A stretch of 64,000 bases of DNA, from positions 1 through 64,000 of the forward strand of contig NZ_JACIEP010000014.1 of assembly GCF_014196915.1 (NCBI RefSeq), in the 5' to 3' direction. Below, in pieces: positions 8,439 to 28,181 of the stretch. The notes below the pieces were generated by a model, which did not search any database, had not been told where the DNA came from, and worked only from the letters and a program-made list of their open reading frames with translations. This stretch comes from Dysgonomonas hofstadii (GTDB lineage: Bacteria > Bacteroidota > Bacteroidia > Bacteroidales > Dysgonomonadaceae). The position numbers and the translations under genes were made by a program. Position 1 is the stretch's first letter, and the number at the start of each line of letters is the position of its first letter.

Positions 8439-10346
8439 ATGGGAAAAATCATAGGAATTGACTTAGGTACCACAAACTCTTGTGTGTCGGTACTTGAAGG
8501 TAACGAACCGATCGTTATCGCAAACAATGAAGGTAAAAGAACGACTCCTTCTGTAGTTGCTTTTATCGAGGGAAATGAACGCAAGGTGGGTGATCCTGCA
8601 AAACGTCAGGCTATTACTAATCCTGAAAAGACAATATATTCCATAAAGAGATTTATGGGAGAAACATGGGATCAGGCGAAACCTGAAGTTCCACGAGTAC
8701 CTTATAAAGTGGTAAAAGGTGATAATAACACACCTCGTGTAGACATAGACGGACGTCTTTACACTCCGCAGGAAATCTCTGCTATGATACTCCAGAAAAT
8801 GAAGAAAACAGCAGAAGATTATCTTGGACAGGAAGTTAGCCGTGCAGTGATCACTGTTCCTGCATACTTTAACGACGCACAGCGTCAGGCAACTAAAGAA
8901 GCCGGGGAAATTGCTGGTCTGAAAGTAGAGCGTATCGTTAACGAACCTACAGCCGCTGCTCTTGCTTATGGTCTTGATAAAACAAATAAAGACATGAAGA
9001 TCGCGGTGTTTGACCTTGGTGGTGGTACATTCGATATCTCCATCCTTGAACTTGGTGATGGTGTATTCGAAGTAAAATCAACAAACGGTGACACGCACCT
9101 CGGTGGTGACGACTTTGATAACGTGATCATCAACTGGCTGGCCGAAGAATTCTTAAATGATGAAAGAGTTGACCTGCGTAAAGATCCGATGGCTCTTCAA
9201 CGTCTGAAAGAAGCTGCGGAAAAAGCTAAAATTGAGCTTTCTAGTACAACTTCCACAGAGATCAACCTGCCATACATTATGCCGGTAGATGGTATTCCAA
9301 AACACTTGGTAAAAACCTTGACCCGTGCTAAATTTGAACAATTGGCTGACACTCTTATCCGTAAATGTATCGAACCTTGCCGTCAGGCTTTGAGCGATGC
9401 CGGATACAGTGCGAAAGATATAGATGAAGTAATTCTTGTGGGTGGATCGACACGTATACCTGCAGTACAGACTGAAGTAGAGAAATTCTTCGGAAAAGCT
9501 CCGTCAAAAGGTGTTAACCCGGATGAAGTGGTTGCTGTAGGTGCTGCTATACAAGGTGGTGTATTAACTGGGGAGGTAAAAGATGTATTGTTGCTTGATG
9601 TTACTCCGCTTTCACTTGGTATAGAAACGATGGGTGGTGTAATGACTAAACTGATAGAATCGAATACAACTATCCCTACAAAGAAAAGCGAGACATTCTC
9701 TACAGCTGCCGACAATCAGCCGTCTGTACAGATCAATGTGCTACAGGGAGAACGTCCGATGGCAAGAGATAACAAGCAGATCGGAGTATTCAACCTCGAT
9801 GGTATACCAGCTTCTCCTCGTGGAGTGCCTCAGATCGAAGTTACATTCGACATCGATGCTAACGGTATATTGAGCGTATCGGCAAAAGATAAAGCAACCG
9901 GTAAGGAACAGTCGATCCGTATCGAAGCATCTTCTGGTCTTAGCGACGCTGAAATCCAGAAGATGAAAGATGAAGCCGCCGCTAACGCCGAAGCAGACCA
10001 GAAAGAAAAAGAAAGAATAGATAAACTGAATCAGGCCGACTCTATGATCTTCCAGACTGAAAAACAATTAAGCGAATTGGGAGACAAAGTTCCCGCCGAA
10101 CAGAAAGCTCCAATTGAAGCAGCTTTGAATAAACTGAAAGATGCACATAAAGCTCAGGATATTGCAGCCATAGATTCTGCTATGGAAGAAATGAACAAAT
10201 TGCTGCACGAAATGAGCCAGAATATGTATAATCAACAGCAACAGGCGGGTGCAAATCCGAACCAGCAGGCTGGCGGCAATGCAGGAGGTCAGTCAAACGG
10301 AGGAGACAATGACGTGACCGATGTAGATTTTGAAGAAGTGAAATAA
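8439..10346 (+). CDS. dnaK: Molecular chaperone DnaK (Hsp70)
   Basis: This 635-aa Hsp70 is full length. The nucleotide-binding domain (about 1-380) shows [11 protein letters not shown], the FDLGGGTFD phosphate loop and the VGGSTRIP adenosine motif; then come the linker region [15 protein letters not shown], the peptide-binding domain and a helical lid. The C-terminal tail is Gln/Gly/Asn-rich and ends in DVDFEEVK, the usual docking tail. There is no dnaJ or grpE next to it. The last codons (from 10328) are part of the attachment site of the 16.66-kb IME: the final AAA-TAA is on the element side of the crossover, while the native AAG-TAA remains at 26998-27003. The protein sequence is unchanged by the insertion. 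Confidence 0.98.
10328..10342 (+). other. attL core of the IME, inside the dnaK 3' end
   Basis: TTTTGAAGAAGTGAA occurs here, encoding the last residues of DnaK, and again exactly at 26986-27000. The repeats extend as ...AATAA here and ...AGTAA on the right, so 18 of 19 bases match and both copies spell FEEVK-stop. This pair bounds the IME. Confidence 0.85.
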
Positions 10347-11110: not shown

Positions 11111-12370
11111 ATGAAAGAACTCACGAACACCAAAGTAACCGTTCGGCTTCGCAAAGCAGAAGACCGAAAGGAGTGGTATGTTTATATCGAAAGTTATCCG
11201 GTGTTCGTTCCGGGCAAACAAACACCACAACGTATTCGTGAATACCTCAATCGCAGTGTAACCACAGTAGAATGGGATAAAAAACGAACTGCCCGAACCG
11301 AGGCAGATGGAACAAGAACCTATAAACCCAAGCGTGACGATAACGGAATTATTATGTGTCGAAGTGAAAAAGATCAGGAAACTATGCTGTATGCCGATGG
11401 TGTTCGTAAGCTTCGACAACGTGAGTACGACAATGCCGATTTATACAGCGATACAGAAAACGCTCAAGCCGAGCAAAAAGAACGTTTGCAACAGGATTTT
11501 ATAACTTATTTCAATAAAGTGGCAGCCAAACGTCATGCAAACAGTTCAACCTCTATTCAAACCAATTGGCAGCGTACCAACGAATTTCTAAAGCAATCTA
11601 CAGAAGGTTCTTTGCTGTTTTCTCAAATTGACAACCGCTTTGCCGAAGGGTTTAAACGGTTCCTGTTATCTGCTCCATGTGGGGGTAATCGCAGTGGAAC
11701 GATTTCGCACAATACGGCTGCTACTTATTTCTCTATTTTCAAGGCTGCACTGAAACAAGCTTTTGTGGATGGCTATCTAACGGTAGATTTATCGGCTAAA
11801 ATCAAAGGTATTCAGGAACAGGAATCCAGAAGAGAATATTTGACCGTTGAAGAACTCAACACCCTTGCCGCTACTCCTTGCGAACGGGATGTATTGAAAC
11901 GGGCAGCGCTTTTTTCTGCACTTACAGGCTTGCGACATTGTGATATCCAAAAGCTTCGTTGGAAAGAAATTAGCATAGACGGCAAGCAAGCCAAATTGCA
12001 TTTTACGCAACAGAAGACGAAAGGCGTTGAGTATACTCCTATTTCAGAGCAAGCCTTATTACTATGTGGTGAACCCCGACAACCCGAACAATTGGTATTT
12101 GAAGATCTTCCGGATCCGGCATGGATCTCCAAGCCTTTAAAACGTTGGGTAGAAGCAGCCGGAATTACCAAGAAGATCACATTCCATTGCTTTCGGCATA
12201 CGTATGCTACTCTTCAACTAAGCAGTGGTACAGACATTTATACCGTTAGTAAAATGTTGGGACATACCAATGTGAAAACGACACAGATTTATGCCAAAGT
12301 GGTAGATGAGAAGAAGAGTAAAGCGGCACAAGCTATTCGATTAAAAACAATAAATACCACAAAAGAATGA
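11111..12370 (+). CDS. Tyrosine integrase of the IME
   Basis: The 419-aa recombinase has an arm-binding N-terminus, a SAM-like domain (about 120-220) and a catalytic domain. In contrast to the integrase at 1232, all catalytic residues are present: ALTGLRHCDIQ (Arg), FHCFRHTYATL (His, Arg), LGHTNVKTTQIYAK (His and nucleophilic Tyr). It lies 0.77 kb inside attL and is predicted to recombine the 15-bp core in the dnaK 3' end. The next gene overlaps its last 4 nt, so it is transcribed with the double-HTH gene and the membrane-protein gene. Confidence 0.95.
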   Translation: MKELTNTKVTVRLRKAEDRKEWYVYIESYPVFVPGKQTPQRIREYLNRSVTTVEWDKKRTARTEADGTRTYKPKRDDNGIIMCRSEKDQETMLYADGVRKLRQREYDNADLYSDTENAQAEQKERLQQDFITYFNKVAAKRHANSSTSIQTNWQRTNEFLKQSTEGSLLFSQIDNRFAEGFKRFLLSAPCGGNRSGTISHNTAATYFSIFKAALKQAFVDGYLTVDLSAKIKGIQEQESRREYLTVEELNTLAATPCERDVLKRAALFSALTGLRHCDIQKLRWKEISIDGKQAKLHFTQQKTKGVEYTPISEQALLLCGEPRQPEQLVFEDLPDPAWISKPLKRWVEAAGITKKITFHCFRHTYATLQLSSGTDIYTVSKMLGHTNVKTTQIYAKVVDEKKSKAAQAIRLKTINTTKE

Positions 12371-13093: not shown

Positions 13094-14563
13094 ATGGATC
13101 AGAAAACTATCAAATTTCAACAGATAAGTGACACTATTTTTGAAGATGACAATGCTGCATTAAAACTAATCTCATTGTTTGAATCTGGGAAAGTTGATTT
13201 TAAACTTGCGACAGCTATAGAAAATATTATAATGGATGCAAATATGCTCCGAGAGGATAATGGGGAGTTTTTAGTCCATTTTAACTTGCTTCCAGAATGG
13301 GAAGAAAAATTCAGAATGGATTATTTCTTCGAGAAGCCAGCAATACTCGCAACACATGGAGTCAGAATATTAATAAAAAATACAGATGTTACTGCATTTA
13401 AACAATCAATTGGAGAAGGTATAAAACAAGCCTCTATAAAAATTAATGCATTTCGAGGAGATTTAGATGATAACAAATGGGAAAATGCCAAACAATCGGC
13501 TTTTTATCGGTATGATTGCGATAAATTTGCTGCTTATTCTTGTGGAATACTTTATGATATTACAACGAGTAAGGATCAAGATTCTTCATGGAAAAATTGT
13601 GTAAAAATAGAAATTAACAATCGAACAATATTATTTTATCATGTGAGAATCGAAGATAGTCTTGGATACTTTGTATTCAAAACAAATGATCCAATTAATC
13701 ATGATGATTTTTTACATATTATTAATGCAATAAGAGCCGCATTTTCTCTAATTTCAGGTTTTTATATCGCAGATAGTGCTTATTTCTTTTCTATGCAAAA
13801 GGGAAAGAAAGATACATTAACCTATCGTTATGAAAATTTTAATGAAACAATACATACAGAAAGACCTCTATTAGACAATCATTCATATCAAGATATCTCT
13901 CAAAAAGAATTACAGTTAACCTCTGATCAATTCGCATATCTTGTAAAGTTGCTATGTGAAAATGAAGAGTTACTTCGCTCCTGCATATTACTCACGCAAG
14001 CTAGTAATATAAACGGTTTGTCTAAGGGATGTCTGGCTGCAGTTGCATTAGAAACTATTACTAATGTAATTGTACCTAAAGATAAAATAATCAAACCACT
14101 AATAGAAGATAAAGAAATCAATAGTCAACTGAAATATGAATTAAAAAAGTCACTAAAAAAAATCAAAAATAAAGTAGCAAAATCTATATACGATTCATTA
14201 GAGAGTAAATTAGGCAAAATAAATGAACAGTCAAACTCTTCAAAGTTAGGCTCTCCATTTGCAGCTCTAAACATTGATTTAGACGACGAAGATCTATACT
14301 GTATATCATGTAGAAATCGTTTTCTGCACGGTTCTTTACCTACACCAACGACAGAACTTTTCAAGTCATTAACGAATGATGAATTATTGAAACTTGTCTG
14401 CAATCGTTTGATAATGCTATCCACTATGCTTATCTTAAAAAAGATAGGCTATGAACATGATGTTGTTGATTGGGGATATACTGAAATCGGAATAAGAAGA
14501 ATGATGATAAAGGGAGAATCTGTTAGTGGTATAGGTCGAGCACATAGAACAATTGGTAATTAA
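13094..14563 (+). CDS. Large protein with a C-terminal HEPN-like motif
   Basis: The 489-aa protein has no signal peptide. Near its C-terminus the segment CRNRFLHGSL (Arg407, His412) matches the R-x4-6-H motif of HEPN RNases, in a setting (RN..HG, then a long helix with LLKLVCNRLI) like Apea-type HEPN domains. The first 350 residues are mixed alpha/beta and unknown to me. HEPN proteins are common as ribonucleases in toxin-antitoxin and phage-defence loci. AT content is higher than in the flanking mobilization genes, suggesting a separate origin. It is the last gene of the int operon; a 155-bp control region with phased repeats follows. Confidence 0.65.
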   Translation: MDQKTIKFQQISDTIFEDDNAALKLISLFESGKVDFKLATAIENIIMDANMLREDNGEFLVHFNLLPEWEEKFRMDYFFEKPAILATHGVRILIKNTDVTAFKQSIGEGIKQASIKINAFRGDLDDNKWENAKQSAFYRYDCDKFAAYSCGILYDITTSKDQDSSWKNCVKIEINNRTILFYHVRIEDSLGYFVFKTNDPINHDDFLHIINAIRAAFSLISGFYIADSAYFFSMQKGKKDTLTYRYENFNETIHTERPLLDNHSYQDISQKELQLTSDQFAYLVKLLCENEELLRSCILLTQASNINGLSKGCLAAVALETITNVIVPKDKIIKPLIEDKEINSQLKYELKKSLKKIKNKVAKSIYDSLESKLGKINEQSNSSKLGSPFAALNIDLDDEDLYCISCRNRFLHGSLPTPTTELFKSLTNDELLKLVCNRLIMLSTMLILKKIGYEHDVVDWGYTEIGIRRMMIKGESVSGIGRAHRTIGN

Positions 14564-16167: not shown

Positions 16168-16310
16168 GAGCAATGTAGCAAGAGGGAACTGGACAAGCCC
16201 TGTTCTATCCTCTTGCCCTGCGGGATTACTTGCTGTTAATCAGCAAGATATTAAGAATGAGTTTTATAAAAACTCATATAAGCCTAATCAACAAAATCCT
16301 GTTGATTAGG
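16168..16310 (+). other. Candidate oriT with stacked inverted repeats
   Basis: Between the ATPase and mobilization genes lie several inverted repeats: GCAAGAGG...CCTCTTGC (from about 16170 to 16217), CTTGCTG-TTAAT-CAGCAAG (16229-16247), GAGTTTT-ATA-AAAACTC (16259-16275) and a perfect 10-bp stem CCTAATCAAC/GTTGATTAGG (16283-16310). Transfer origins of Bacteroides mobilizable elements lie directly before their mob genes, and closely spaced hairpins are typical. The nick site cannot be assigned. A 62-codon frame through this stretch is not considered a gene. Confidence 0.5.
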
Positions 16311-16321
16311 TGATTAACAAA

Positions 16322-16936
16322 ATGAATTCTTATAAAAATGTTATAAATATGGAAGGAAATAAGAATAAATCGGTATTGACTACGATTGGAATTGATAAAT
16401 CAACCAATCGCTTAATTGATAAATTGAGCAATCGATATAACTTGAAAAAAGGAGAGATTGTTAAGCTTGCATTTGAATACATGGATAAAGCCTGTATCAA
16501 TCCGTCAGAACCTCCTGAATCAGTAAAGACAGAGATGGCGAAAATAAACAAACGACAAGATGACTTGATACGTTTTATTCGCCACTTTGAAGAGGAACAA
16601 CTAAATCCAATGATTCGGGCGACACATTCAATAGCTATTCGTTTTGATGGGATAGTGAAAGATTTGGAAACACTTGTTCTTTCACAGTTGGAGAATAATC
16701 ATGAAAAGTATAACACCGTACTTCAAAAAATCAGCGATACCCTTACTCAACATGCTGATGTAATAAACAATCAGGGAAAACAAATCAACTCACTACATCA
16801 ACTATTGAAGCAGGATAATAAAAAGTTGTTGGAATTAATCGGACTGTATGCCGAACTTACAGCATGCGGAGTCATGGATGGGAAGCGAAAAGAAAACCTA
16901 AAAGCTGAAATCTACCAATTAATCAATGCTGAGTGA
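16322..16936 (+). CDS. BfmA/BtgA-family mobilization accessory protein
   Basis: The product (204 aa from the ATG at 16322; a GTG at 16310 and ATG at 16352 are alternatives) has an N-terminal ribbon-helix-helix-like region (TTIGIDKSTNRLIDKLSNRY, then LKKGEIVKLAFEYMDK) and a long helical, coiled-coil C-terminal half. This is the layout of BfmA/BtgA proteins, which bind oriT and recruit the relaxase. The relaxase gene overlaps its stop (TGATG). The candidate oriT is immediately upstream. Confidence 0.8.
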   Translation: MNSYKNVINMEGNKNKSVLTTIGIDKSTNRLIDKLSNRYNLKKGEIVKLAFEYMDKACINPSEPPESVKTEMAKINKRQDDLIRFIRHFEEEQLNPMIRATHSIAIRFDGIVKDLETLVLSQLENNHEKYNTVLQKISDTLTQHADVINNQGKQINSLHQLLKQDNKKLLELIGLYAELTACGVMDGKRKENLKAEIYQLINAE

Positions 16937-17817
16937 TGAATATCGACTTTCCACCACCCTCTAACGGAGTCTATAATAATGCAGGCAGTAGCCGACAGTT
17001 GGCAAACTACCTCGAACATGAAGATATGGAACGAATGCAAAAAGGCATTTACACTGAAGGTTTTTTCAACCTGTCAGAGGACGATTTGTATAAAAGCCAA
17101 GTTGTTAAGGATATTGACAGTAATATTGGTCAGCTACTGAAAACGGATGCCAAGTTTTATGCTATCCATGTCAGCCCATCTGAAAAAGAATTGCAGCGAA
17201 TGGGCAACACCGAGCAGGAACAAGCCGAAGCCATGAAACGGTATATTCGGGAAGTATTTATTCCCGAATACGCCAAAAACTTCAACAAAGGACTATCCGC
17301 AGAAGATATCAAGTTCTACGGAAAAATCCATTTCGACCGTGACCGCTCAAATAACAAACTAAATATGCACTGCCATTTGATTGTAAGCCGCAAAGACCAG
17401 TCTAATAAAGTAAAGATAAGTCCGCTCACCAATCACCGAAATACTAAGAAAGGAGCTATCAAAGGAGGATTTGACCGTGTAACACTATTTGAGAATGTAG
17501 AGAAAGGTTTTGATAAACTATTCGGCTACGATCGACAACTCTCCGAAACTTTTGAGTATTGTAATACAATGAAAAATGGCTCTCTTACAGACAAACTACG
17601 GATGCAGGAAAAAGAAATTGCTGGGATGGACATACCACCAAACGTAAAGCTGTTTAGTCAGCAAAACGACCAATTAGCCAACCAATCAAATATCATTCTT
17701 GATACCGCTTCAGCATTATTTTCTATTCTGCCATCAGGAGCAGAAAACAATAATATAGAAGAACCATTAATCAGACCAAAGAAAAAAAAGAAGAAACGAA
17801 GACCAAGAATATCCTAA
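16936..17817 (+). CDS. Relaxase/mobilization protein, BtgB (DUF5712) type
   Basis: The protein is 293 aa from ATG 16936, which overlaps the preceding stop; a GTG lies at 16933. The motif NMHCHLIVSRKDQ has the closely spaced His residues of relaxases that coordinate the metal at the nicking site. IHVSPSEKELQ and FYGKIHFDRDR are further conserved parts, as in the BtgB/clindamycin-transfer-factor proteins of Bacteroides. The C-terminus is a short Lys/Arg-rich tail. It should nick oriT and lead single-strand transfer using the conjugation machinery of a co-resident element. Confidence 0.85.
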   Translation: MNIDFPPPSNGVYNNAGSSRQLANYLEHEDMERMQKGIYTEGFFNLSEDDLYKSQVVKDIDSNIGQLLKTDAKFYAIHVSPSEKELQRMGNTEQEQAEAMKRYIREVFIPEYAKNFNKGLSAEDIKFYGKIHFDRDRSNNKLNMHCHLIVSRKDQSNKVKISPLTNHRNTKKGAIKGGFDRVTLFENVEKGFDKLFGYDRQLSETFEYCNTMKNGSLTDKLRMQEKEIAGMDIPPNVKLFSQQNDQLANQSNIILDTASALFSILPSGAENNNIEEPLIRPKKKKKKRRPRIS

Positions 17818-18082: not shown

Positions 18083-18361
18083 ATGCTCTTTTCCGAAAAG
18101 ATAAAACAGCTACGTGAAGAAAGATCCATGCCGCAAAGATTACCGGCTGCTGAGTTGGAAATAGACACCGCAACCTACTGTAAGATTGAGCGTGGCGACA
18201 GACGAGCGAAACGCAATCAAGTTACTACTCTATCTAAAATTTTCAAAGTAAATGAGGAAGAGCTTGTTGTATTATGGCTTGCCGACCAAATAATGACATT
18301 GGTAGAAAACGACAAACAGGTAGCTGCAAAAGCACTGGAAATTGTAAAACAAAACGTATGA
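18083..18361 (+). CDS. XRE-family helix-turn-helix regulator, probable antitoxin
   Basis: The product (92 aa from ATG 18083) is a compact XRE/Cro-type HTH protein: FSEKIKQLREERSMPQRLPA, then TATYCKIERGDRRAK, the recognition region, and a helical tail. The stop overlaps the Fic start by ATGA, the usual coupling of an autoregulating antitoxin and its toxin. It probably represses its own promoter at 18017-18052; no clear palindrome is visible there. Whether it binds Fic directly is unknown. Confidence 0.8.
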   Translation: MLFSEKIKQLREERSMPQRLPAAELEIDTATYCKIERGDRRAKRNQVTTLSKIFKVNEEELVVLWLADQIMTLVENDKQVAAKALEIVKQNV

Positions 18362-19086
18362 ACGAACTATTAACATATCTCAAAGAAGAGAAACAGGCAA
18401 AGCGAAAAGGAGGCTTGTATCATAAAACACAAGTAAACCTTGCCTATAATTCAAACCGGATAGAGGGCAGCAAGTTGACTGAAGAGCAAACTCGCTACAT
18501 TTTTGAAACCCGTACAATAGGTTTTAAAGATCAGGAAGCTGTACCTGTAGATGATATTATAGAGACATCCAATCACTTTGTAGCATTCGATTATCTGCTT
18601 GATACAATAGATCAGCCTCTTTCAAACGAAATTATAAAAGAGTTCCACCGAATATTAAAAACAGGAACCTCGGACGCTACCAAAGAATGGTTTCGTGTGG
18701 GTGACTGGAAAAAACTACCCAATGAAGTAGGTGGAACAGAAACTACTTTACCTCAGCATGTAGAAGCTGACATGAACAAACTTAACGATTGGTATCATGC
18801 TATCTGTGAAATTTCTTTTGAGCATATTGTTGAATACCATTCCCGTTTTGAAAAAATCCATCCATTTCAGGATGGTAACGGTCGAGTGGGTCGCCTGATT
18901 ATGTTCCGAGAATGCTTGAAAAATAAGATCGTGCCATTTATCATTGACGATAATCACAAGCAATTCTACTACCGTGGCTTAAAAGAGTTTGCACATATAA
19001 GAGGCTATTTAGTAGACACCTGCCTTTCGGCGCAAGATACTTACAAAGAGTGGGTGAAGTATTTTTATCCCAATTTGGAAGATTAA
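18358..19086 (+). CDS. Fic-domain AMP transferase with built-in inhibitory helix
   Basis: The 242-aa protein has the Fic active motif HPFQDGNGRVGR at 168-179. The His deprotonates the target hydroxyl, and Asp, Gly-Asn-Gly and Arg hold the nucleotide and Mg. The N-terminal segment SNRIEG (32-37) matches the class II inhibitory motif (S/T)xxxE(G/N), whose Glu blocks productive nucleotide binding until relieved. Such proteins AMPylate host targets and often act as toxins or regulators. It is coupled to an XRE gene and precedes the methyltransferase operon by 27 nt. Confidence 0.9.
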   Translation: MNELLTYLKEEKQAKRKGGLYHKTQVNLAYNSNRIEGSKLTEEQTRYIFETRTIGFKDQEAVPVDDIIETSNHFVAFDYLLDTIDQPLSNEIIKEFHRILKTGTSDATKEWFRVGDWKKLPNEVGGTETTLPQHVEADMNKLNDWYHAICEISFEHIVEYHSRFEKIHPFQDGNGRVGRLIMFRECLKNKIVPFIIDDNHKQFYYRGLKEFAHIRGYLVDTCLSAQDTYKEWVKYFYPNLED

Positions 19087-19113: not shown

Positions 19114-21822
19114 ATGACCAGTAAAGAAATAGAAAGCAATGTAAGGCAAATCTTTGAAAATTTCACAAAAGAGGAATTTATCTTTGATCTTTTGATTGCC
19201 TATGGTATCTCCAAAACATCTGTTACAAGAATAAAAAATGGAGACTTCAACCTTTCAAAAGTTGAGGGAGAGGTTCTTTATAAAAAGAAAGTTTTTTTTA
19301 AAGAAGGAGAATCGGATAAGCTACTTAGTACAATCGAAATACTTTCAAGAGAGGAGCGAATACTTAAGCACAATCCTCGATTTATCATTGTTACCGACTA
19401 CAAAACGTTAGCCGCAAAAGATTTAAAGACAAAAAAGAATCTGGATGTTGCATTGGATGAATTACCAAAGTATTTCGATTTCTTTCTGCCTTTGGCCGGA
19501 AGCGAAGTATACATTACCAAAAATAACAACAAAGCAGACAGAGAAGCGGCATATAAAATGGCCGAACTATATGATAAGCTGATTGAAGGTAATCAGGATA
19601 CATATAACTCGAAAGAGAGTGTACATGAGCTGAATATATTTTTATCGCGGTTGCTGTTTTGTTTTTTTGCTGAGGATACCGAAATTTTCGAGGAAGAAGG
19701 GATGTTCACAAGCACCCTCGTACAGCATACGTTAGAGAATGGAAGCGATACACATCTTTTTTTAAACGATCTATTCAACCGCTTAAACACACAAGACGGA
19801 AGCTTGCTACCCTCGTATTTGGCTAAATTTCCTTATGTGAATGGAGGGCTTTTTAGAGACAGTATAAATTCACCTGTATTTACACCTAAAGCCAGAAGAA
19901 TTTTAATTGAGCTGGGCGAGCTGAACTGGCAGGAAATCAATCCTGATATATTCGGATCGATGATTCAAGCCGTTGTTTTACCCGAATACCGAAGCGATTT
20001 GGGTATGCACTATACATCGGTAGAAAATATACTAAAGCTTATAAAGCCGTTATTTTTAGACGAGCTGTACGAAGAGTACGAAAAGTGTACTACCGAGAGT
20101 CAGCTAAGAAAGTTGATTCTCAGAATATCGAAAATAAAATTTTTCGACCCTGCCTGCGGAAGTGGTAATTTTCTGATTATCACATATAAAGAGATTAGAC
20201 TTTTAGAAATACTGATTCTTCAAAAAATAATAGAGTTAAATCCAAATCCCCGTTTTGAATATACGCAAATCAGCCTTTCTCAATTTTACGGTATTGAGAT
20301 TGATGACTTTGCCCACGAAATGGCTATTCTCTCACTTTGGCTGGCCGAACACCAAATGAACCTCATTTTTGAAGAACGACTTTACGGTTATGGCAAATCA
20401 AAACCTATTTTGCCTTTGAAAGAAGCAGGCAAAGTAACACAAGGAAATGCTACCCGTATTGATTGGAAAGCAGTCTGCCCTGTGTCGAAAGATGATGAGG
20501 TGTATATTATCGGAAACCCCCCATATTTAGGTGCTAGGCTTCAGGATGATGAGCAGAAAAAAGATATGCGTATTGTTTTTCATGGAGTAAATGGCTATAA
20601 CAACATGGATTATATTTCATGTTGGGTTTATAAATCAAAAGATTATATATCGGGCAATAACGCTGAGGCTGCTTTTGTTACAACAAACTCTATATGTCAG
20701 GGAGAACAGGTTGCTTTACTGTGGCCTCATATACTAAATGGTCAAATAGAAATTGGGTTTGCATACCATTCTTTTAAATGGACAAATAATGCAAAAGGAA
20801 CAGCCGGAGTTACAGTTATTATTTTAGGGCTACGAAATGTTTCCAATAAAGCAAAATACCTGTTTGACGAAAATATAAAAAGACTGGCAAAAAATATTAA
20901 CCCCTATCTGCTCGATTCGAATAATATAGTTATTCAAGGAAAAAGTAAACCGATTTCAAAACTCCCGGAAATTAGTTTTGGAAATATGGCTAATGATGAT
21001 GGGAATTTACTTTTATCAAAAACTGAAAAAGAAGATCTATTGCGAAATGAACCTGAATCTTCTTTATTTATTAAAAACCTTGTAGGAGCATTAGAGTTTA
21101 TTAGGGGAATTGAGAAATATTGCCTTTGGATAGATGACGAAAATGCTGAATTCGCTTTTTCTTTACCTAAAGTTGCTGAAAGAATTGAAAGGACAAGATT
21201 GGCAAGGCAAAATAGTAAAAGAAAGTCAACACAAGAATTGAGTTCAATTCCCTATAAATTTGCAGAAATTAGATATTTACCTACAGAGGTAATAATCATA
21301 CCAAGTGTATCATCGGAAAAAAGAGAATATATTCCTATAGGTTTTTTAAATTCCAATAGCATTGTCGTAGCTCCTAATTTTGCAGTCTATAACGCCCAGC
21401 CGTGGATTTTTGCTGTAATTACTTCACGCATGCACATGGTGTGGGTAAGAGCTGTTGGTGGCAGACTAAAGACTGATTATAGATATTCAGCTAAGCTATG
21501 CTACAATACTTTCCCTTTTCCCGATATTAATGTAAAACAAAAGGAGAATTTGAATCTTTACGTTTTTGCTATACTGGAAGAAAGAGAAAAGCACCCCGAA
21601 AAAACAATGGCATGGCTATACAACCCCGATACCATGCCGACAGGACTTAGAAAAGCCCACAAGGAGCTGGATGAGGCGGTTGAAAAATGCTATCGCCTCC
21701 AGCCTTTCACTACCGATACCGAACGTCTGGAGTACCTGTTTAGGCTATATGAGGAAATGACCCAAAAAGACACCTTGTTTGCCAAACAAAAGAGTAAAAG
21801 AAACCCAAAGAGTAAAAAGTAA
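19114..21822 (+). CDS. Class I DNA adenine-type methyltransferase, MmeI/YeeA-like
   Basis: This 902-aa protein has motif I FFDPACGSGNF (343-353) for S-adenosylmethionine, an acidic motif GIEIDDFA, and the N6-adenine/N4-cytosine catalytic motif NPPY (468-471). A long target-recognition region follows (about 560-860). RFIIVTDYKTL and the helical spacer before motif I are as in MmeI-like enzymes. In true type IIL enzymes the N-terminus is a PD-(D/E)XK nuclease; here residues 40-75 (GDFNLSKVEGEVLYKKKVFF) give no clear D...ExK triad, so cutting may be left to the partner genes. The helicase gene starts 3 nt after its stop. Confidence 0.88.
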   Translation: MTSKEIESNVRQIFENFTKEEFIFDLLIAYGISKTSVTRIKNGDFNLSKVEGEVLYKKKVFFKEGESDKLLSTIEILSREERILKHNPRFIIVTDYKTLAAKDLKTKKNLDVALDELPKYFDFFLPLAGSEVYITKNNNKADREAAYKMAELYDKLIEGNQDTYNSKESVHELNIFLSRLLFCFFAEDTEIFEEEGMFTSTLVQHTLENGSDTHLFLNDLFNRLNTQDGSLLPSYLAKFPYVNGGLFRDSINSPVFTPKARRILIELGELNWQEINPDIFGSMIQAVVLPEYRSDLGMHYTSVENILKLIKPLFLDELYEEYEKCTTESQLRKLILRISKIKFFDPACGSGNFLIITYKEIRLLEILILQKIIELNPNPRFEYTQISLSQFYGIEIDDFAHEMAILSLWLAEHQMNLIFEERLYGYGKSKPILPLKEAGKVTQGNATRIDWKAVCPVSKDDEVYIIGNPPYLGARLQDDEQKKDMRIVFHGVNGYNNMDYISCWVYKSKDYISGNNAEAAFVTTNSICQGEQVALLWPHILNGQIEIGFAYHSFKWTNNAKGTAGVTVIILGLRNVSNKAKYLFDENIKRLAKNINPYLLDSNNIVIQGKSKPISKLPEISFGNMANDDGNLLLSKTEKEDLLRNEPESSLFIKNLVGALEFIRGIEKYCLWIDDENAEFAFSLPKVAERIERTRLARQNSKRKSTQELSSIPYKFAEIRYLPTEVIIIPSVSSEKREYIPIGFLNSNSIVVAPNFAVYNAQPWIFAVITSRMHMVWVRAVGGRLKTDYRYSAKLCYNTFPFPDINVKQKENLNLYVFAILEEREKHPEKTMAWLYNPDTMPTGLRKAHKELDEAVEKCYRLQPFTTDTERLEYLFRLYEEMTQKDTLFAKQKSKRNPKSKK

Positions 21823-21825
21823 GCT

Positions 21826-23787
21826 ATGCAAAATTTAGTACAAGTAGAATATAGCCAAACAGGGCAAAGTAAAAAGACGAACGAGCTGGGTATGCGCGAA
21901 ATGCAGCAGAAAGCCTATGCAGCCAACACAGCACAGTACCTGTTAATAAAAGCGCCTCCAGCTTCGGGCAAATCAAGGGCACTTATGTTTATTGCTTTGG
22001 CAAAGCTGCAACATCAAGGAATAAAAAAAGTAATTGTAGCCGTTCCCGAACGAACGATAGGTGCTTCATTTGCACCCACTGAATTAAAAAAACACGGTTT
22101 TTTTGCTGACTGGAATCCCAACGACCGATACAATCTTTGTACGCCCGGTTCCGAAAAAAGCAAAGTATCGGCATTTCTCAATTTCCTCGATAGTGATGAG
22201 CAGATTTTAATCTGCACACATGCCACATTGCGCTTTGCTTTGGATGGACTGGATGAAAAAAGGTTGAACAACGCACTGATAGCTATTGATGAGTTTCATC
22301 ATGTTTCGGCTGATGGCGATAATCGGCTGGGAGAAGTAATGAGAAACATCATGGCAAAATCGACTGCGCATATCGTTGCCATGACTGGATCATACTTCAG
22401 GGGCGATAATGTACCCGTTTTATTACCCGAGGATGAAGCAAAATTCACCCGTGTAACGTATAACTACTACGAGCAGCTGAACGGATATGAGTACCTGAAA
22501 TCGTTGGGCATCGGTTATCACTTCTATCAAGGTCGGTATTTCAAAAAGCAACCCGATAAGGAAATGTCGGCCTTAGAAGAAATTTTAGACGAAAACAAAA
22601 AGACAATCATACATATCCCGAGTGTCAACTCGGCCGAATCATCTAAAGAAAAATATGAAGAGGTAAGCCATATCATCGATGTACTGGGCGATTTAGAATA
22701 TCAGGATGAGAAAACGGGTGTATTATTTGTAAAGAGTAAACGAACGGGTAAAACTCTTAAGGTTGCCGATTTGGTAAATGACGACCCTCGCGCAAGAGAA
22801 AAAATAACAACTTACTTACGTGAAATAAAATCGCCCGATGATATTGACATTATTATTGCATTAGGCATGGCTAAAGAGGGATTTGACTGGCCTTACTGCG
22901 AGCATGCCTTAACCATAGGTTATCGTGGCTCGTTAACAGAGATTATCCAAATCATAGGACGTGCAACCCGGGATAGTAATAATAAAACACATGCCCAATT
23001 TACTAACTTGGTTGCTGAACCGGATGCAGAAAATGAAGAAGTAAGAGTTGCCGTAAATAATATGCTTAAAGCAATTACAGCCTCTCTACTGATGGAGCAA
23101 GTACTAGCACCCAACTTCAAATTCAAAGCTAAGAAATCGGATGATGACGATGATGATGAATCGGATGAAAACACAATTAAAATACATGGGTTTAAGCTTC
23201 CAACTTCGCAAAGAGCAAAAGACATTATCGAAAGCGATTTGAATGATTTGAAAGCTCGCATTTTACAAGATGATCAGATGCTAAAAGCAATGCCCGGAAA
23301 TATTGAGGCTGAAGTGATAAACACAGTTTTAATTCCCAAAATAATACGGGAAGTTTACCCTGATTTAAGCGAAGAGGAAGTTGAAGCCGTACGTCAGCAT
23401 TTGGTTGTTGATTCTGTGATTAAGAATAGTACGATAGAAGAGCAAGGAGGTAGAAAATTTATCCGTATGGCAGGTAGCTTTGTGAATATTGACGATATTC
23501 ACATTGACTTGATTGACCAAATTAATCCATTCCAAAAGGCTTTTGAGATACTTTCCAAATCGGTTACTACCCAAGTCTTGAAATTGATTGACGACCATAT
23601 TCAAGCTGTTAAAATAGATATGACTGAGGAAGAAGCGATTCTTTTGTGGCCTAAAATAAAAGAGTGGAGAGAAAAAACAGGCGAAGCTCCTAATATCCAC
23701 TCCTATGACCCTAAAGAAAAGCGAATGGCAGAAGCCTTGGTATTTTTAAGAGAATTGAAAAGACAAAGAGCATTATCAAATGAGTAA
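21826..23787 (+). CDS. Superfamily 2 DEAD/DEAH-type helicase
   Basis: The 653-aa protein has Walker A APPASGKS (43-50), Walker B DEFHH (155-159), a MTGSY motif III-like segment and motif VI QIIGRATRD (375-383), so it is a complete SF2 ATPase/translocase. After the core come an acidic stretch of six consecutive Asp (about 444-449) and a helical C-terminal domain of about 200 residues that ends in a basic tail. Restriction systems use such translocases to move along DNA. The start is 3 nt after the methyltransferase stop and the end overlaps the GIY-YIG gene by 8 nt: one tightly coupled operon. Confidence 0.88.
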   Translation: MQNLVQVEYSQTGQSKKTNELGMREMQQKAYAANTAQYLLIKAPPASGKSRALMFIALAKLQHQGIKKVIVAVPERTIGASFAPTELKKHGFFADWNPNDRYNLCTPGSEKSKVSAFLNFLDSDEQILICTHATLRFALDGLDEKRLNNALIAIDEFHHVSADGDNRLGEVMRNIMAKSTAHIVAMTGSYFRGDNVPVLLPEDEAKFTRVTYNYYEQLNGYEYLKSLGIGYHFYQGRYFKKQPDKEMSALEEILDENKKTIIHIPSVNSAESSKEKYEEVSHIIDVLGDLEYQDEKTGVLFVKSKRTGKTLKVADLVNDDPRAREKITTYLREIKSPDDIDIIIALGMAKEGFDWPYCEHALTIGYRGSLTEIIQIIGRATRDSNNKTHAQFTNLVAEPDAENEEVRVAVNNMLKAITASLLMEQVLAPNFKFKAKKSDDDDDDESDENTIKIHGFKLPTSQRAKDIIESDLNDLKARILQDDQMLKAMPGNIEAEVINTVLIPKIIREVYPDLSEEEVEAVRQHLVVDSVIKNSTIEEQGGRKFIRMAGSFVNIDDIHIDLIDQINPFQKAFEILSKSVTTQVLKLIDDHIQAVKIDMTEEEAILLWPKIKEWREKTGEAPNIHSYDPKEKRMAEALVFLRELKRQRALSNE

Positions 23788-24985
23788 GAAAATAACCATA
23801 GATGAGATATTTAATGATGATGACTTTGGGTTGTTAGACTCAAAGGCAAAGTCTACTTCCATAAAATCAGCTGATGACAGACTTATTGATTCTTTTGAAG
23901 AAATAAATCAGTTTATCGACAATAATAATCGGGAACCAAATAGTACGAGTATGTCTGAGTATAGTTTGATGGCCAGATTAAAGACATTCAGACAAGACGA
24001 TGTTAAGAAAAAAATATTAAAGCCATTTGATAGGCATAATTTGCTTGGATTTGTTGAAATGGAAAGCCCTTCAATTGACGATATATTATCTGACGATGAT
24101 TTTGGCTTGTTAGATACAGACAAAGACTTATCCATTTTCAGATACAAAAATATTCCAAAACAGGAAGAGAGAGCCGAAGCCGATTTTATAGCTCAAAGAA
24201 AATCGATGAAAGAAGATGAATTTGAACCTTATGAAAAAATGTTTCAACAGGTTCACAAGGAAATCAAAGAAGGAAAGCGAAAGATCAAGCCATTTCAAAA
24301 TATTGAAAAAAACCTTCATGTTGGCAACTTTTACATAATAGATGGAATCCTTTTATTTCTTGAGTCAGCAGAAATAGAACAAACAAAAAGGTCATTGAAA
24401 TCGGGTGATAGAGTAAGGAAAGATGGTAGAACTAAAACAATATTTGAAAACGGGACATATAGCAATATGCTTTATAGATCATTAGGAAAACAAATTCAGA
24501 AAGATGGAAAACTTATAACCAACACGTATGAGACCATCGAAAATGGATTGTTTGTAAATGCCAACATTGTAAAAGAGGAAGACATTCAAACAGGTTGGGT
24601 TTACATATTAAAATCGAAATCCACCAACCCTCAAATATCTGCAATTAAGGATTTGTATAAAATTGGATTTTCTACTACACCTATAGAGGAACGAATCAAG
24701 AATGCAAAGAATGAAGCCACTTATTTGTTTGCAGATGTTCAAATAGTTATTTCATATAAATGCTATAATCGGAATGCAGATAAGTTAGAGCAACTATTGC
24801 ATAGGTTTTTCGCTTCTACCTGCTTGAATGTTGATTTGTTTAATGAAAGAGGACTTAGAATTACACCGCGAGAATGGTTTGTTGTACCATTAAACATAAT
24901 TGAAGAAGCTATCCAGCTGATTTTGAATGAAAGTATCGTAAACTATAAATACAATGTAGAGACTCAAATAATAGAACTGAAATAA
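23780..24985 (+). CDS. GIY-YIG (MUG113/T5orf172-like) nuclease with duplicated acidic motif
   Basis: The C-terminal part of this 401-aa protein (about 272-371) is a GIY-YIG-type domain of the MUG113/T5orf172 group: GWVYILKS, LYKIGFSTTPIEERI (catalytic Arg side), KLEQLLHRFF (catalytic Glu) and REWFVVP. The N-terminus carries the near-identical motif ID-E/D-I-x-x-DDDFGLLD twice (residues 7-20 and 99-112), separated by a helical segment with an INQFIDNNNREPN stretch. The repeated acidic motif may be a docking peptide for the helicase or methyltransferase. It overlaps the helicase stop by 8 nt. It probably supplies the DNA cleavage step of the three-gene system. Confidence 0.85.
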   Translation: MSKKITIDEIFNDDDFGLLDSKAKSTSIKSADDRLIDSFEEINQFIDNNNREPNSTSMSEYSLMARLKTFRQDDVKKKILKPFDRHNLLGFVEMESPSIDDILSDDDFGLLDTDKDLSIFRYKNIPKQEERAEADFIAQRKSMKEDEFEPYEKMFQQVHKEIKEGKRKIKPFQNIEKNLHVGNFYIIDGILLFLESAEIEQTKRSLKSGDRVRKDGRTKTIFENGTYSNMLYRSLGKQIQKDGKLITNTYETIENGLFVNANIVKEEDIQTGWVYILKSKSTNPQISAIKDLYKIGFSTTPIEERIKNAKNEATYLFADVQIVISYKCYNRNADKLEQLLHRFFASTCLNVDLFNERGLRITPREWFVVPLNIIEEAIQLILNESIVNYKYNVETQIIELK

Positions 24986-25033: not shown

Positions 25034-25804
25034 ATGAAAAATAACATTCGCTTTCAAGATATAGATAATTTACTTTTTTGTGGCGATATCCACGGAGAGT
25101 TTGAGACCATTGTCTTTAAGCTTAATCAATACAATAATGCTGTTCTGATTGTTTGTGGTGATATTGGGATGGGATTTTATAAGGATGAATACTATTATAC
25201 GCTGTTTAAAAAGCTGAATAGCAAGCTGTCAAAACAAAACAATCATTTACTTCTTTTTAGGGGCAATCATGATGATCCGACCTTTTTCAGCGGCTCGTTT
25301 AAAAAATATCCACACATACATCTGATACCAGATTACGGCGTGATTTCGGTTAATCAAACCAACGTTTTATGTGTGGGTGGAGCAACTTCCATAGACCGAA
25401 AGTATCGAATAGAAACAGAGTGGAGAACCGGGAAGAAATCTTACTGGGGAGAAGCAGAGCTGCCTTACTACGATAGCGAAAAATTGGATATGATTCATCA
25501 GCAATTTGCTAATGCGATTCACTTGGTAGCATCTCATACAGCTCCATCATTTGCTTATCCCACTTCAAAAGCAAATATTGCAACTTGGATAGCAGCTGAT
25601 GAGGGATTAAATGACCTTTTGGATAAAGAAAGAGCGATCATGGATCAACTCTTTGCCAACTTACAAAAGTTGCAACCTAACATAACCGATTGGTACTACG
25701 GCCATTTTCATGAACATAAATTGGAGCAACATTACAGCATCGATTTTCATTTGTGTGATTGTTGCGAAATAAATGAGTTTAGAAAGTTTGACAAAATGAA
25801 TTGA
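25034..25804 (+). CDS. Calcineurin-like metallophosphoesterase
   Basis: All signature blocks are present in this 256-aa protein: CGDIHGEF (D-x-H), VCGDIGMG (GD), FRGNHDDP (GNHD), ASHTAPS (His) and GHFHEH (GHxH). They build the two-metal centre of Ser/Thr phosphatases, cyclic nucleotide phosphodiesterases and nucleases of this superfamily; the substrate is unclear. It starts 48 nt after the GIY-YIG gene and is 15 nt before the Bro-N gene, so it may belong to the same transcript. It may serve defence, signalling or repair on the element. Confidence 0.88.
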   Translation: MKNNIRFQDIDNLLFCGDIHGEFETIVFKLNQYNNAVLIVCGDIGMGFYKDEYYYTLFKKLNSKLSKQNNHLLLFRGNHDDPTFFSGSFKKYPHIHLIPDYGVISVNQTNVLCVGGATSIDRKYRIETEWRTGKKSYWGEAELPYYDSEKLDMIHQQFANAIHLVASHTAPSFAYPTSKANIATWIAADEGLNDLLDKERAIMDQLFANLQKLQPNITDWYYGHFHEHKLEQHYSIDFHLCDCCEINEFRKFDKMN

Positions 25805-25819
25805 GAAAGGAATTGTATT

Positions 25820-26665
25820 ATGAAAAAAATGAATAATAAAATACAGTTATTTGAAGAACGGAAAGTCCGATCTATATGGGACGAAGAAACCGAGGAATGG
25901 TATTTTTCAATTGTAGATGTAGTTGGAGTACTAACAGATAGTCCAAATCCGAATAATTATTGGAAAGTACTGAAAAACAGACTAAAGAAAGAGGGAAGTC
26001 AGTTGGTTACAAATTGTAACCAACTGAAAATGCAATCTTCTGATGGCAAATATTACAAAACAGATGTTGCTGATACAGAACAACTTTTTCGATTAATACA
26101 ATCTATCCCCTCACCCAAGGCTGAACCATTCAAACTATGGTTAGCCGAAGTAGCCAAACAAAGGCTTGACCAACTACAAGACCCTGAACTCTCCATAGAA
26201 CAGGCAATGACTGACTACAAACGTCTGGGGTATTCCGACAATTGGATAAACCAACGTTTGAAGAGTATTGAGATTCGCAAAGAATTAACCGATGAATGGA
26301 AACGACTTGGATTGGAAGAAGGGATCGAATTTGCTGTACTCACTGATATTATTTACCAGACATGGGCAGGTAAAAACGCCAAGGAATACAAGAAGTTTAA
26401 GGGCTTGAAGAAAGAGAATCTTCGCGACAATATGACTAATAAAGAATTGGTGTTGAATATGCTTGCCGAATTGTCTACCAAAGAAATTTCAGAAACAACG
26501 AATCCTGAATCATTTCCTGAACACGAAGATGTGGCACGTCGTGGAGGGAATATTGCGAAAGAAGCTCGCTTAAAACTGGAAGCAGAAACAGGAAAGAAAG
26601 TGGTAAGCCCGCTCAATGCAAAAAGCATTCACTCTATTGAACAAAAAAAAGAAGAAAATGAATGA
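25820..26665 (+). CDS. Bro-N domain protein (phage antirepressor/DinD-like)
   Basis: The 281-aa protein opens with a Bro-N domain (about 5-115: VRSIWDEETEEWYFSIVDVV, YWKVLKNRLKKEGSQ, and LPSPKAEPFKLWLAEVAKQR-like helix), known from baculovirus BRO and phage antirepressors as a DNA-binding unit. The C-terminal half is helical and Lys/Glu-rich, with a DVARRGGNIAKEARLKLE segment as in DinD-type relatives. It could regulate element or prophage genes under DNA damage. The DUF3781 gene overlaps its end by 8 nt. Confidence 0.82.
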   Translation: MKKMNNKIQLFEERKVRSIWDEETEEWYFSIVDVVGVLTDSPNPNNYWKVLKNRLKKEGSQLVTNCNQLKMQSSDGKYYKTDVADTEQLFRLIQSIPSPKAEPFKLWLAEVAKQRLDQLQDPELSIEQAMTDYKRLGYSDNWINQRLKSIEIRKELTDEWKRLGLEEGIEFAVLTDIIYQTWAGKNAKEYKKFKGLKKENLRDNMTNKELVLNMLAELSTKEISETTNPESFPEHEDVARRGGNIAKEARLKLEAETGKKVVSPLNAKSIHSIEQKKEENE

Positions 26666-26906
26666 CTTGTTATCCAATATTGACAAAATACATACAACAG
26701 AATTAGGCATAGTACGGATAAAGAGAAATCTTTCGATAGAAACCGATGATGTTGTAAGTTGGTGTAAGCAGCAAATTCAGCAAGCAGACAGTATCATCAG
26801 AAGAGGTAAGAATTGGTATGCATCTATCAATAATGCGATAATAACTGTAAACGCATACAGCTATACTATAATAACCGCCCACAAAAAACAGAAAGTCAAG
26901 CGATAA
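26658..26906 (+). CDS. DUF3781 family small protein
   Basis: The 82-aa product from ATG 26658 (MNDLLSNIDKIHTTELG) is full length for DUF3781, with the conserved TDDVVSWCKQQI and IIRRGKNWYASINN blocks followed by ITVNAYSYTIITAHK. The function of the family is not known. Its start lies 8 nt inside the Bro-N gene, so it is the last gene of the IME, 80 bp before attR. The longer open frame from 26616 lies within Bro-N and is not preferred. Confidence 0.75.
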   Translation: MNDLLSNIDKIHTTELGIVRIKRNLSIETDDVVSWCKQQIQQADSIIRRGKNWYASINNAIITVNAYSYTIITAHKKQKVKR

Positions 26907-26985: not shown

Positions 26986-27000
26986 TTTTGAAGAAGTGAA
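26986..27000 (+). other. attR core of the IME
   Basis: This is the second copy of TTTTGAAGAAGTGAA. It continues AGTAA, which recreates the native dnaK end FEEVK-stop, and 26 bp later the native terminator follows. Inside the element the word ATTTGTACCAT occurs near both ends (10466-10476 and 26940-26950), a possible integrase arm site. Confidence 0.85.
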
Positions 27001-27188: not shown

Positions 27189-28181
27189 ATGAAGAAATTT
27201 TTATTAATGCTGGTATTAGGAGCATTCTTTTATTCGTGTAATGATGATGAAACCAGAATAAACTGGGATGAACCGGACCCCAATTACCATGCTAAGGAAT
27301 TTTTGCAGGATACAAAAGAATCCCTGAAACAGGAACATAAGATCAATACAGCCGATCTGCCTGTGACCATTACTCTGAAAGAAGGTGTGAAGATTACGAT
27401 TCCTCAAAATGCATTCACTAAAAACGGGCAGCCAATTACAGGTGAGTTTACCGTTGAGGCATACGAAATGCTCAAGCCAAGCAGCATGATCTTTTCGGGA
27501 ACGAATACAAACTACTACAATGGCTCATACTTCGAGTCGGATGGTTTCATCTTCATCGATGTAAAACAGAATGGAGTAAGCGTTGATCAGCAGTTGAATG
27601 CTCCGGTTACTATCAGCATCCCTACAGATAAAGAAGACGGCACATTTACTCAACTCTGGAAAGGAAATGAAGAAAGCGGAGACAATGACGATCAGTTTGC
27701 CTGGGAAGATCCGGAAAAAGATGACTTTGTAGAAGTTGGCCAGGAAGAGAGAGGGGTATTCTCCAATAACAAGCAATTCGAATTCCTTATTGGTAAACTT
27801 GGCTGGATCAACTGCGATATATCCTGGAATAGTACCAATGGTATGACAACTATCCGGATCAATTTGTATGGCCAATTTGATAAACTGGCTTCTTATCTAG
27901 GTTACGAAGGCGATACATTCGTATTCTTCCGTGCAAAAGGAGTATTGGTTCTGGTGCAGATCTATACTGCTGATGGTACTAATACAGTGAAGAGCTACGA
28001 CAACGGAATGCCGATTGGTGCTGAAGGTAAGCTTGTAGCTTACTCTGTCAAAGAGGGTAAATTCTCATACGACGAAAAAGAGATTACAATAACAGCTGAT
28101 ATGTCTATTGATCTCGATCTGAAAGATATCAGCAAAGATGATCTGGAGAAGAATATAAAAGCACTGGATACATATGAATAA
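27189..28181 (+). CDS. Putative surface lipoprotein
   Basis: The 330-aa precursor has a short signal peptide ending in the lipobox FYSC (Cys17), followed by an acidic NDDET stretch of the type that can send Bacteroidota lipoproteins to the cell surface. The mature part begins with VTITLKEGVKITIPQNAFT, which resembles the ZU5-like beta-sandwich start in other Bacteroidota lipoproteins, and continues as beta-rich sequence. Function is unknown. It is a single gene with its own strong terminator at 28200-28233, and before IME insertion it would have been the gene after dnaK. Confidence 0.8.
   Translation: MKKFLLMLVLGAFFYSCNDDETRINWDEPDPNYHAKEFLQDTKESLKQEHKINTADLPVTITLKEGVKITIPQNAFTKNGQPITGEFTVEAYEMLKPSSMIFSGTNTNYYNGSYFESDGFIFIDVKQNGVSVDQQLNAPVTISIPTDKEDGTFTQLWKGNEESGDNDDQFAWEDPEKDDFVEVGQEERGVFSNNKQFEFLIGKLGWINCDISWNSTNGMTTIRINLYGQFDKLASYLGYEGDTFVFFRAKGVLVLVQIYTADGTNTVKSYDNGMPIGAEGKLVAYSVKEGKFSYDEKEITITADMSIDLDLKDISKDDLEKNIKALDTYE

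Follow-up and report, generated by a model that had tools for sequence, protein, structure and literature searches.

The first 64,000 nucleotides of contig NZ_JACIEP010000014.1 from Dysgonomonas hofstadii (the whole stretch analysed, here called the window) carry an operon of three genes encoding an MmeI-like adenine methyltransferase, a superfamily 2 (SF2) helicase and a GIY-YIG nuclease. This operon is an apparently intact member of the already known dnmA-yeeB-yeeC cluster, and we regard it as likely that its products form a Type I-like, ATP-dependent restriction system with methyltransferase, motor and GIY-YIG nuclease on separate proteins. In the literature, cited here and below from excerpts, DnmA (YeeA) is described as an MmeI homologue without nuclease motif whose gene precedes one for a helicase and one for a T5orf172/GIY-YIG protein (PMC7261158, PMC9973331), and the synteny of the three genes is reported to be conserved (PMC9973331). 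According to PMC7261158, nuclease-less MmeI homologues beside yeeB and yeeC were already noticed by Morgan et al. (2009), who suggested a Type I-like restriction–modification (R-M) system. We assign the operon of the window to this cluster because a nuclease-less MmeI-like methyltransferase gene is followed first by an SF2 helicase gene and second by a T5orf172/GIY-YIG gene. Term searches in excerpts of four further papers (PMC12839542, PMC10333322, PMC12707154, PMC10952713) yielded nothing on the trio, except that DnmA is named there as an orphan methyltransferase. A preliminary description of this DNA had proposed a modular three-protein system without known counterpart. Its modular character stands, with three families that occur jointly and in mobile surroundings of a defence-like kind, but the claim of novelty falls because the operon belongs to a known cluster, to which it was assigned through literature rather than through profiles.

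All three genes are located on the plus strand with open reading frames, and their coordinates (Table 1), the spacing of 3 nt between methyltransferase and helicase genes (21823-21825) and the 8-nt overlap of the following pair agree with what had been described before. The methyltransferase matches all five Pfam domains of MmeI: the methyltransferase domain (2.7e-102), the target recognition domain (TRD, 8.9e-80), the N-terminal (3.9e-27) and C-terminal domains (1.3e-25) and the spacer (7.1e-24). The helicase matches DEAD, ResIII and Helicase_C, each above cut-off, and the third protein matches MUG113 (1.1e-14) and T5orf172 (2e-12). These matches are far above chance. The defence-profile search (PADLOC-DB 2.0.0) that had been recommended gave a strong match for the methyltransferase alone (type IIG, 1011 bits), a weak PDC-S57 match for YeeC (25 bits) and only weak foreign matches for YeeB.

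The family is widely distributed. Scanning of GTDB contigs with the YeeB alignment gave at least 552 relatives, and the analysis continued with the best 80 loci (loci are numbered here with the letter L); six more were added to give a set of 86. Judged by record title the relatives from the scan originate from Bacteroidota, Campylobacterota, Gammaproteobacteria, Bacillota, Planctomycetes, Spirochaetes, a Methanosarcinaceae metagenome-assembled genome and others, many of them metagenome bins. Co-occurrence of the three families, the second check that had been proposed, is strong. The linkage of yeeB with yeeC is near-obligatory: they adjoin in 79 of the best 80 GTDB loci, and the 80th runs off its contig. 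The methyltransferase gene is found upstream in 73 of the 86 loci and downstream of yeeC in one (L050), and it is absent despite sufficient room in one (L010); upstream sequence is too short for a judgement in 11, leaving 75 judgeable loci. In the window's phylum, for which 296 genomes were covered, the genomes with YeeB and those with YeeC are the same seven, six of them with the methyltransferase (once as a fragment), and MmeI-like methyltransferases occur in 35 of the 296. Homologous trios are also found in Bacillus mediterraneensis (L087) and other genomes of its order, where all ten YeeB-bearing genomes (out of 397, L087 included) contain the three genes in order; the methyltransferase of L151 lies in two frames and YeeC of L153 is apparently broken. 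In 24 further genomes of the same genus, some of them incomplete, YeeB was not found (E 1e-20).

YeeB was also detected in 263 of 72,556 plasmid records, five of which were examined: L134 and L197 carry methyltransferase, yeeB and yeeC as single genes, L132 has the methyltransferase, yeeB and a split yeeC, L133 shows a methyltransferase annotated in two pieces plus a split yeeC, and in L135 yeeB-yeeC begins 1.95 kb from the start of the record with no methyltransferase listed. Among IMG/VR contigs 41 contain YeeB and, given room, yeeC is adjacent in 39 of 40 and the methyltransferase gene upstream in 29 of 29; phage records gave two partial matches only. No match to a Providencia operon was found by megablast in Escherichia coli genomes, and in a distant DNA search 12 of 5426 E. 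coli genomes matched YeeB in part, over 38% of the query at most. One of these 12 was inspected and has the trio: on the chromosome of E. coli MRE162 (L198) it is situated between insertion sequence and phage- or satellite-like genes with an integrase nearby.

Open reading frames (ORFs) of at least 60 amino acids are inserted between methyltransferase and yeeB in 39 of the 73 loci with upstream methyltransferase (L013 having a methyltransferase fragment only), and a gap of more than 200 nt between yeeB and yeeC is seen in only four of 84 pairs. In three of these (L052, L077, L092) the YeeC match starts before the ORF called, ATG being the only start that our scripts accepted, and L008 has a real gap of 384 nt. 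The 66 inserted ORFs of at least 80 amino acids include matches to RhuM (12), SLFN_AlbA_2 (12), Fic (5) and BRO-N (3); this tally omits 9 of 75 ORFs (three from L013, one a YeeB piece). Among the matches listed, the PADLOC candidate families PDC-S23 and PDC-S05 are the top ones for inserted ORFs.

The methyltransferase has lost the nuclease triad of its relatives, as the preliminary description had supposed for its N-terminus. Catalytic residues of MmeI are D70, E80 and K82 (PMC4833311). MmeI (PDB 5hr4) aligns with residues 87-884 of the window's enzyme only (E 2.4e-185), and the D, E and K columns hold other residues. For comparison we used MmeI-like methyltransferases from genomes without YeeB, which all belong to the window's phylum. 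They derive from 30 loci among the matches listed, after five in YeeB-bearing genomes were set aside and six of the remaining 25 were dropped (ORF below 780 amino acids). The motif D-x9-E-x-K is present in all 16 untruncated enzymes of this unlinked set, and three more are truncated there. In contrast, none of 62 methyltransferases linked with YeeB and YeeC (mostly from the YeeB pattern scan with its best 80 loci) has a complete triad: D appears once, E and K never in their columns, one row is gapped, and mostly E, K and V/E/A are found instead. Motif I for S-adenosylmethionine binding (DPACGSGNF) and the NPPY motif are conserved in the linked enzymes. In L147 the tyrosine of NPPY is at position 465, as is Y465 of DnmA (PMC7261158). 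In a quick tree, linked and unlinked enzymes are separated by one branch (Shimodaira–Hasegawa-like approximate likelihood ratio test, SH-aLRT, 100). A position-insensitive pattern, D-x(8-11)-[EQ]-x-K, was also tried and gave nine matches in 61 linked methyltransferases; these adjoin the anchor at residue 87. We rely on the column test instead, because the pattern matches do not line up with the motif seen in the unlinked set. Since D, E and K are lost, the N-terminal domain of the linked methyltransferases looks like a degenerate nuclease, and cleavage would have moved to a separate chain.

The specificity code known for the MmeI family (PMC4833311, PMC4081073) was the basis for predicting the recognition site. 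K786 and D788 of the window's enzyme (MmeI positions 806 and 808) point to G at position 6, M625 (645) to A at position 2, and R790 (810) together with P754 (774) to a purine or G at position 4; the pair S731/A753 (751/773) is uninformative. The predicted target is 5'-NAN(R/G)AG-3' with methylation of the adenine at the fifth position. The Bacillus subtilis DnmA site GACGAG is consistent with this pattern. In the 62 linked enzymes the pair at 806/808 is KD in 33, ER in 18, RD in 8 and different in 3 cases.

Both downstream proteins retain their functional motifs. Helicase motifs I, II, III, V and VI of YeeB are near-invariant in alignment A6 (67 rows; the window and 66 of 76 YeeB rows). In alignment A7 (the window and 65 of 74 YeeC rows) Y275, R305, E337, N330 and H341 are invariant in 66 of 66 rows, and Y275, R305 and E337 are the residues expected for GIY-YIG catalysis. 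Four YeeB and six YeeC rows had been dropped before alignment for a stop or short length. Of 84 pairs of the two genes 67 overlap, 42 of them by exactly 8 nt; because the overlap is kept across relatives, motor and cutter look as if they were translated in a coupled fashion.

YeeC contains a duplicated acidic motif (near SIDDILxDDxLGLLD), and 48 of 66 rows have both copies. A natural split of yeeC into two genes is seen in L132, L133 and L166 (two plasmids and an IMG/VR contig), which probably represent one lineage because they are near-identical. The split falls between the two motifs, and each half thus bears one of them near its start. This arrangement suggests that the motif may dock each half of YeeC onto a partner. 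Outside YeeC a loose version of the pattern occurs in 19 YeeB ORFs, always at one helicase stretch (NNML) and judged to be unrelated. Of 1201 other ORFs six contain it, including the fragment that L077 has in the position of YeeC. A further module of about 31 residues is common to the C-terminus of YeeB and the region of YeeC after the first acidic motif (hhalign probability 93, with 18 other YeeB and 9 other YeeC slices as controls giving 3.1 at most). Searches of PDB sequences with the profiles of the YeeB and YeeC alignments gave no match.

We propose the following scheme. The MmeI-like protein would bind its asymmetric 6-bp site and methylate the fifth-position adenine, by which host DNA would be protected. 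At unmethylated sites it would recruit or license YeeB, which would act as a DNA-translocating SF2 motor. YeeC, whose translation would be coupled to that of YeeB and whose acidic repeats probably keep it in the complex, would then cut with its GIY-YIG domain. Complex formation, translocation and cleavage, like the recognition site itself, are what we infer from genes and motifs.

With the single-chain Type IIL/IIG enzyme MmeI (5hr4) the trio shares alignable methyltransferase, TRD, spacer and C-terminal domains including mappable specificity positions. In contrast with MmeI, which cuts via its own N-terminal PD-(D/E)XK domain, D, E and K are replaced in the window's protein and helicase and nuclease have separate genes; because the triad is lost, we reject single-chain restriction of the MmeI kind. 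Type I R-M systems likewise unite modification, motor and nuclease functions, and accessory genes are inserted between their modification and motor genes, as in relatives of the trio. They differ in that the window shows no HsdS, its TRD is fused to the methyltransferase, and the nuclease is a separate GIY-YIG protein and not part of HsdR. In agreement with the earlier description no defining partner of classical Type I/III, DISARM (defence island system associated with restriction–modification) or BREX (bacteriophage exclusion) systems was matched among 20 proteins, ten scanned with PADLOC, Pfam and NCBIfam and ten more with Pfam alone. In the first ten there was no HsdS or HsdR match, and none to DrmA (DUF1998), DrmB, DrmC (PLD) or DrmD. 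Class 1 DISARM has in common with the operon an MmeI-like methyltransferase region (DrmMI profile, 100 bits) and a helicase. For BREX, PglZ and BrxC gave no match and the best NCBIfam PglX score was 29 of 500 bits. The closest counterpart is the B. subtilis cluster, which by its published description has the same gene order, the same three families and a mobile or defence-island setting. Its YeeB and YeeC proteins, inactive against three phages, are said to be without C-terminal stretches that are present in those of Vibrio crassostreae.

That cluster has also given rise to a different explanation, namely that the methyltransferase is a working orphan epigenetic enzyme and that YeeB and YeeC restrict no longer. 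In B. subtilis three phages plate alike on the single deletion mutants (PMC9973331) and transformation is unchanged upon deletion of dnmA (PMC7261158). Both results weigh against restriction, and so does the lack of any depletion of the recognition site in phages. On the same side stand the literature excerpts, in which no biochemical activity is given for YeeB or YeeC, and locus L010, which has no MmeI-like methyltransferase within 8.6 kb upstream or genome-wide (E 1e-30). However, in V. crassostreae deletion of dnmA or yeeB is reported to raise sensitivity to some phages (another study, cited in PMC9973331). Moreover, YeeB and YeeC retain their catalytic residues in many phyla, and the window's copy has open frames and the conserved 8-nt coupling. 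We regard a relic as unlikely.

Exclusion in the manner of BREX, with methylation as self mark and YeeB-YeeC blocking replication or injection without cutting, or killing the infected cell, appears improbable to us. Marking of a single asymmetric site by a separate methyltransferase, with a helicase and a nuclease supplied in trans, resembles the logic of BREX and DISARM, and many relatives have inserted genes of toxin-like families (Fic, RhuM, AlbA_2). But neither PglZ, BrxC and BrxL nor DUF1998 and PLD were matched in the proteins scanned, and invariance of the GIY-YIG catalytic residues means that cutting is favoured. That YeeB-YeeC are an independent helicase–nuclease module, loosely paired with any nearby sensor or modification gene, is very improbable with the methyltransferase upstream in 73 of 75 judgeable loci, even if the methyltransferase–yeeB junction is often and the yeeB-yeeC junction rarely interrupted and L010 has other genes in place of the methyltransferase. 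In that locus (G238:C3, 3635-12080) genes of SIR2-like, HerA-like (DUF87) and SLFN_AlbA_2 proteins precede yeeB-yeeC. The methyltransferase is not strictly required, because yeeB-yeeC occur there without it, and a swap of the sensor is possible.

The operon resides at dnaK in a stretch of approximately 16.7 kb that has the appearance of an integrative mobilizable element. The mobile element assumed before is thereby confirmed, and it is bounded by a 15-bp direct repeat and by the corresponding empty site in the congener G310. There dnaK and dpp7 are about 0.8 kb apart with a single 14-bp version of the repeat, and the likeness to the right flank of the window past the repeat is short (44 bp at 82%, before dpp7). 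The mobilization genes match NF041200 above cut-off and, with 161 bits where 200 are required, NF041495; two excisionase-like helix-turn-helix (HTH) genes and a DnaC-like loader are found inside the element as well. Between right repeat and dpp7 an open frame (27189-28181) lies outside the element and is yet variable, because it is located beyond the repeat and unmatched in the G310 stretch. A second tyrosine recombinase (1232-2455) beside a tRNA-Arg gene (2580-2654) probably marks the edge of another integrated element. The gene at 13094-14563 had been called HEPN-like. This is plausible only: Pfam, PHROGs and NCBIfam gave no match, and its translation contains an R-N-x3-H string, which we take to be a HEPN-like motif.

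The Fic neighbour described earlier is confirmed. Together with the BRO-N gene it belongs to the same set as the junction inserts, but in the window both are outside the methyltransferase–yeeB junction. In L038, L048 and L081 BRO-N homologues (51-54% identity to 25820-26665) are found between methyltransferase and yeeB. A tblastn search of the 86 other loci (threshold 1e-5) found no counterpart of the metallophosphoesterase. In six loci (L020, L023, L024, L026, L027, L059) a small HTH-like protein (65-80 amino acids, judged by eye), perhaps a controller, is encoded just upstream of the methyltransferase, its ORF ending at most about 10 nt from the methyltransferase start or overlapping it; the window has Fic instead.

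Table 1. Features of the dnmA-yeeB-yeeC operon and of the surrounding integrated element in the window.
Feature	Position	Strand	Evidence
DnmA/YeeA-type MmeI-like adenine methyltransferase with TRD, 902 aa; N-terminal nuclease domain apparently catalytically degenerate	19114..21822	+	Pfam, 5hr4 alignment, column test
YeeB-type SF2 helicase/translocase, 653 aa; C-terminal module common with YeeC (residues ~611-643)	21826..23787	+	Pfam, motifs, hhalign
YeeC-type protein, 401 aa; T5orf172/GIY-YIG nuclease domain at the C-terminus, module common with YeeB at residues ~42-72	23780..24985	+	Pfam, alignment, hhalign
8-nt overlap, yeeB/yeeC coupling	23780..23787	+	ORF coordinates; conserved in relatives
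YeeC acidic motif copy 1, IDEIFNDDDFGLLD, residues 7-20	23798..23839	+	copy 1 in 55/66 rows
YeeC acidic motif copy 2, SIDDILSDDDFGLLD, residues 98-112	24071..24115	+	copy 2 in 53/66 rows
Left att-like 15-bp direct repeat, 3' end of dnaK	10328..10342	.	repeat search; empty site in G310
Tyrosine recombinase of the element	11111..12370	+	Phage_integrase 3.9e-21
BfmA/BtgA-type mobilization protein and MobB-like relaxase (DUF5712)	16310..17817	+	NCBIfam, Pfam
Fic/DOC-family gene, 27 nt upstream of methyltransferase; associated, not core	18274..19086	+	PF02661 4.2e-17; PDC-S04
Metallophosphoesterase, 48 nt downstream of YeeC; associated	25034..25804	+	PF00149
BRO-N domain gene, associated accessory	25820..26665	+	PDC-S13 1.3e-137
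DUF3781 gene, last gene found in element	26616..26906	+	PF12636
Right att-like 15-bp direct repeat	26986..27000	.	repeat search; empty site in G310

Accessory genes of the Fic, BRO, RhuM and AlbA_2 families may represent linked extra defences, and that they act as guards is a guess. We tentatively put forward a more far-reaching idea, which we hold to be possible rather than probable. The trio could constitute a separate class of restriction system, in which a dead-nuclease MmeI-like sensor and methylase, a motor and a GIY-YIG cutter are joined by the duplicated acidic docking motif. The junction between methyltransferase and motor would then be a slot for exchanging guard genes (RhuM, AlbA_2, Fic, BRO) as back-up if restriction fails, and in some lineages (L010) the sensor would be swapped.

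The trio as such is already known as a system, and new here are the triad contrast between linked and unlinked methyltransferases, the duplication and split of the acidic motif of YeeC, the module common to YeeB and YeeC, the junction inserts, the predicted site and the element at dnaK. In the literature searched no established mechanism was found, and B. subtilis, the model studied in detail, appears to be inactive according to the excerpts. This makes the copy of Dysgonomonas hofstadii of interest, which looks intact and belongs to a common family. Because of this intact-looking copy, the predicted site, the conserved catalytic residues and the candidate docking motifs, restriction by three proteins is directly testable. 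Finally, the slot for accessory genes connects the trio with a broader pattern, in which defence operons harbour further defence genes.

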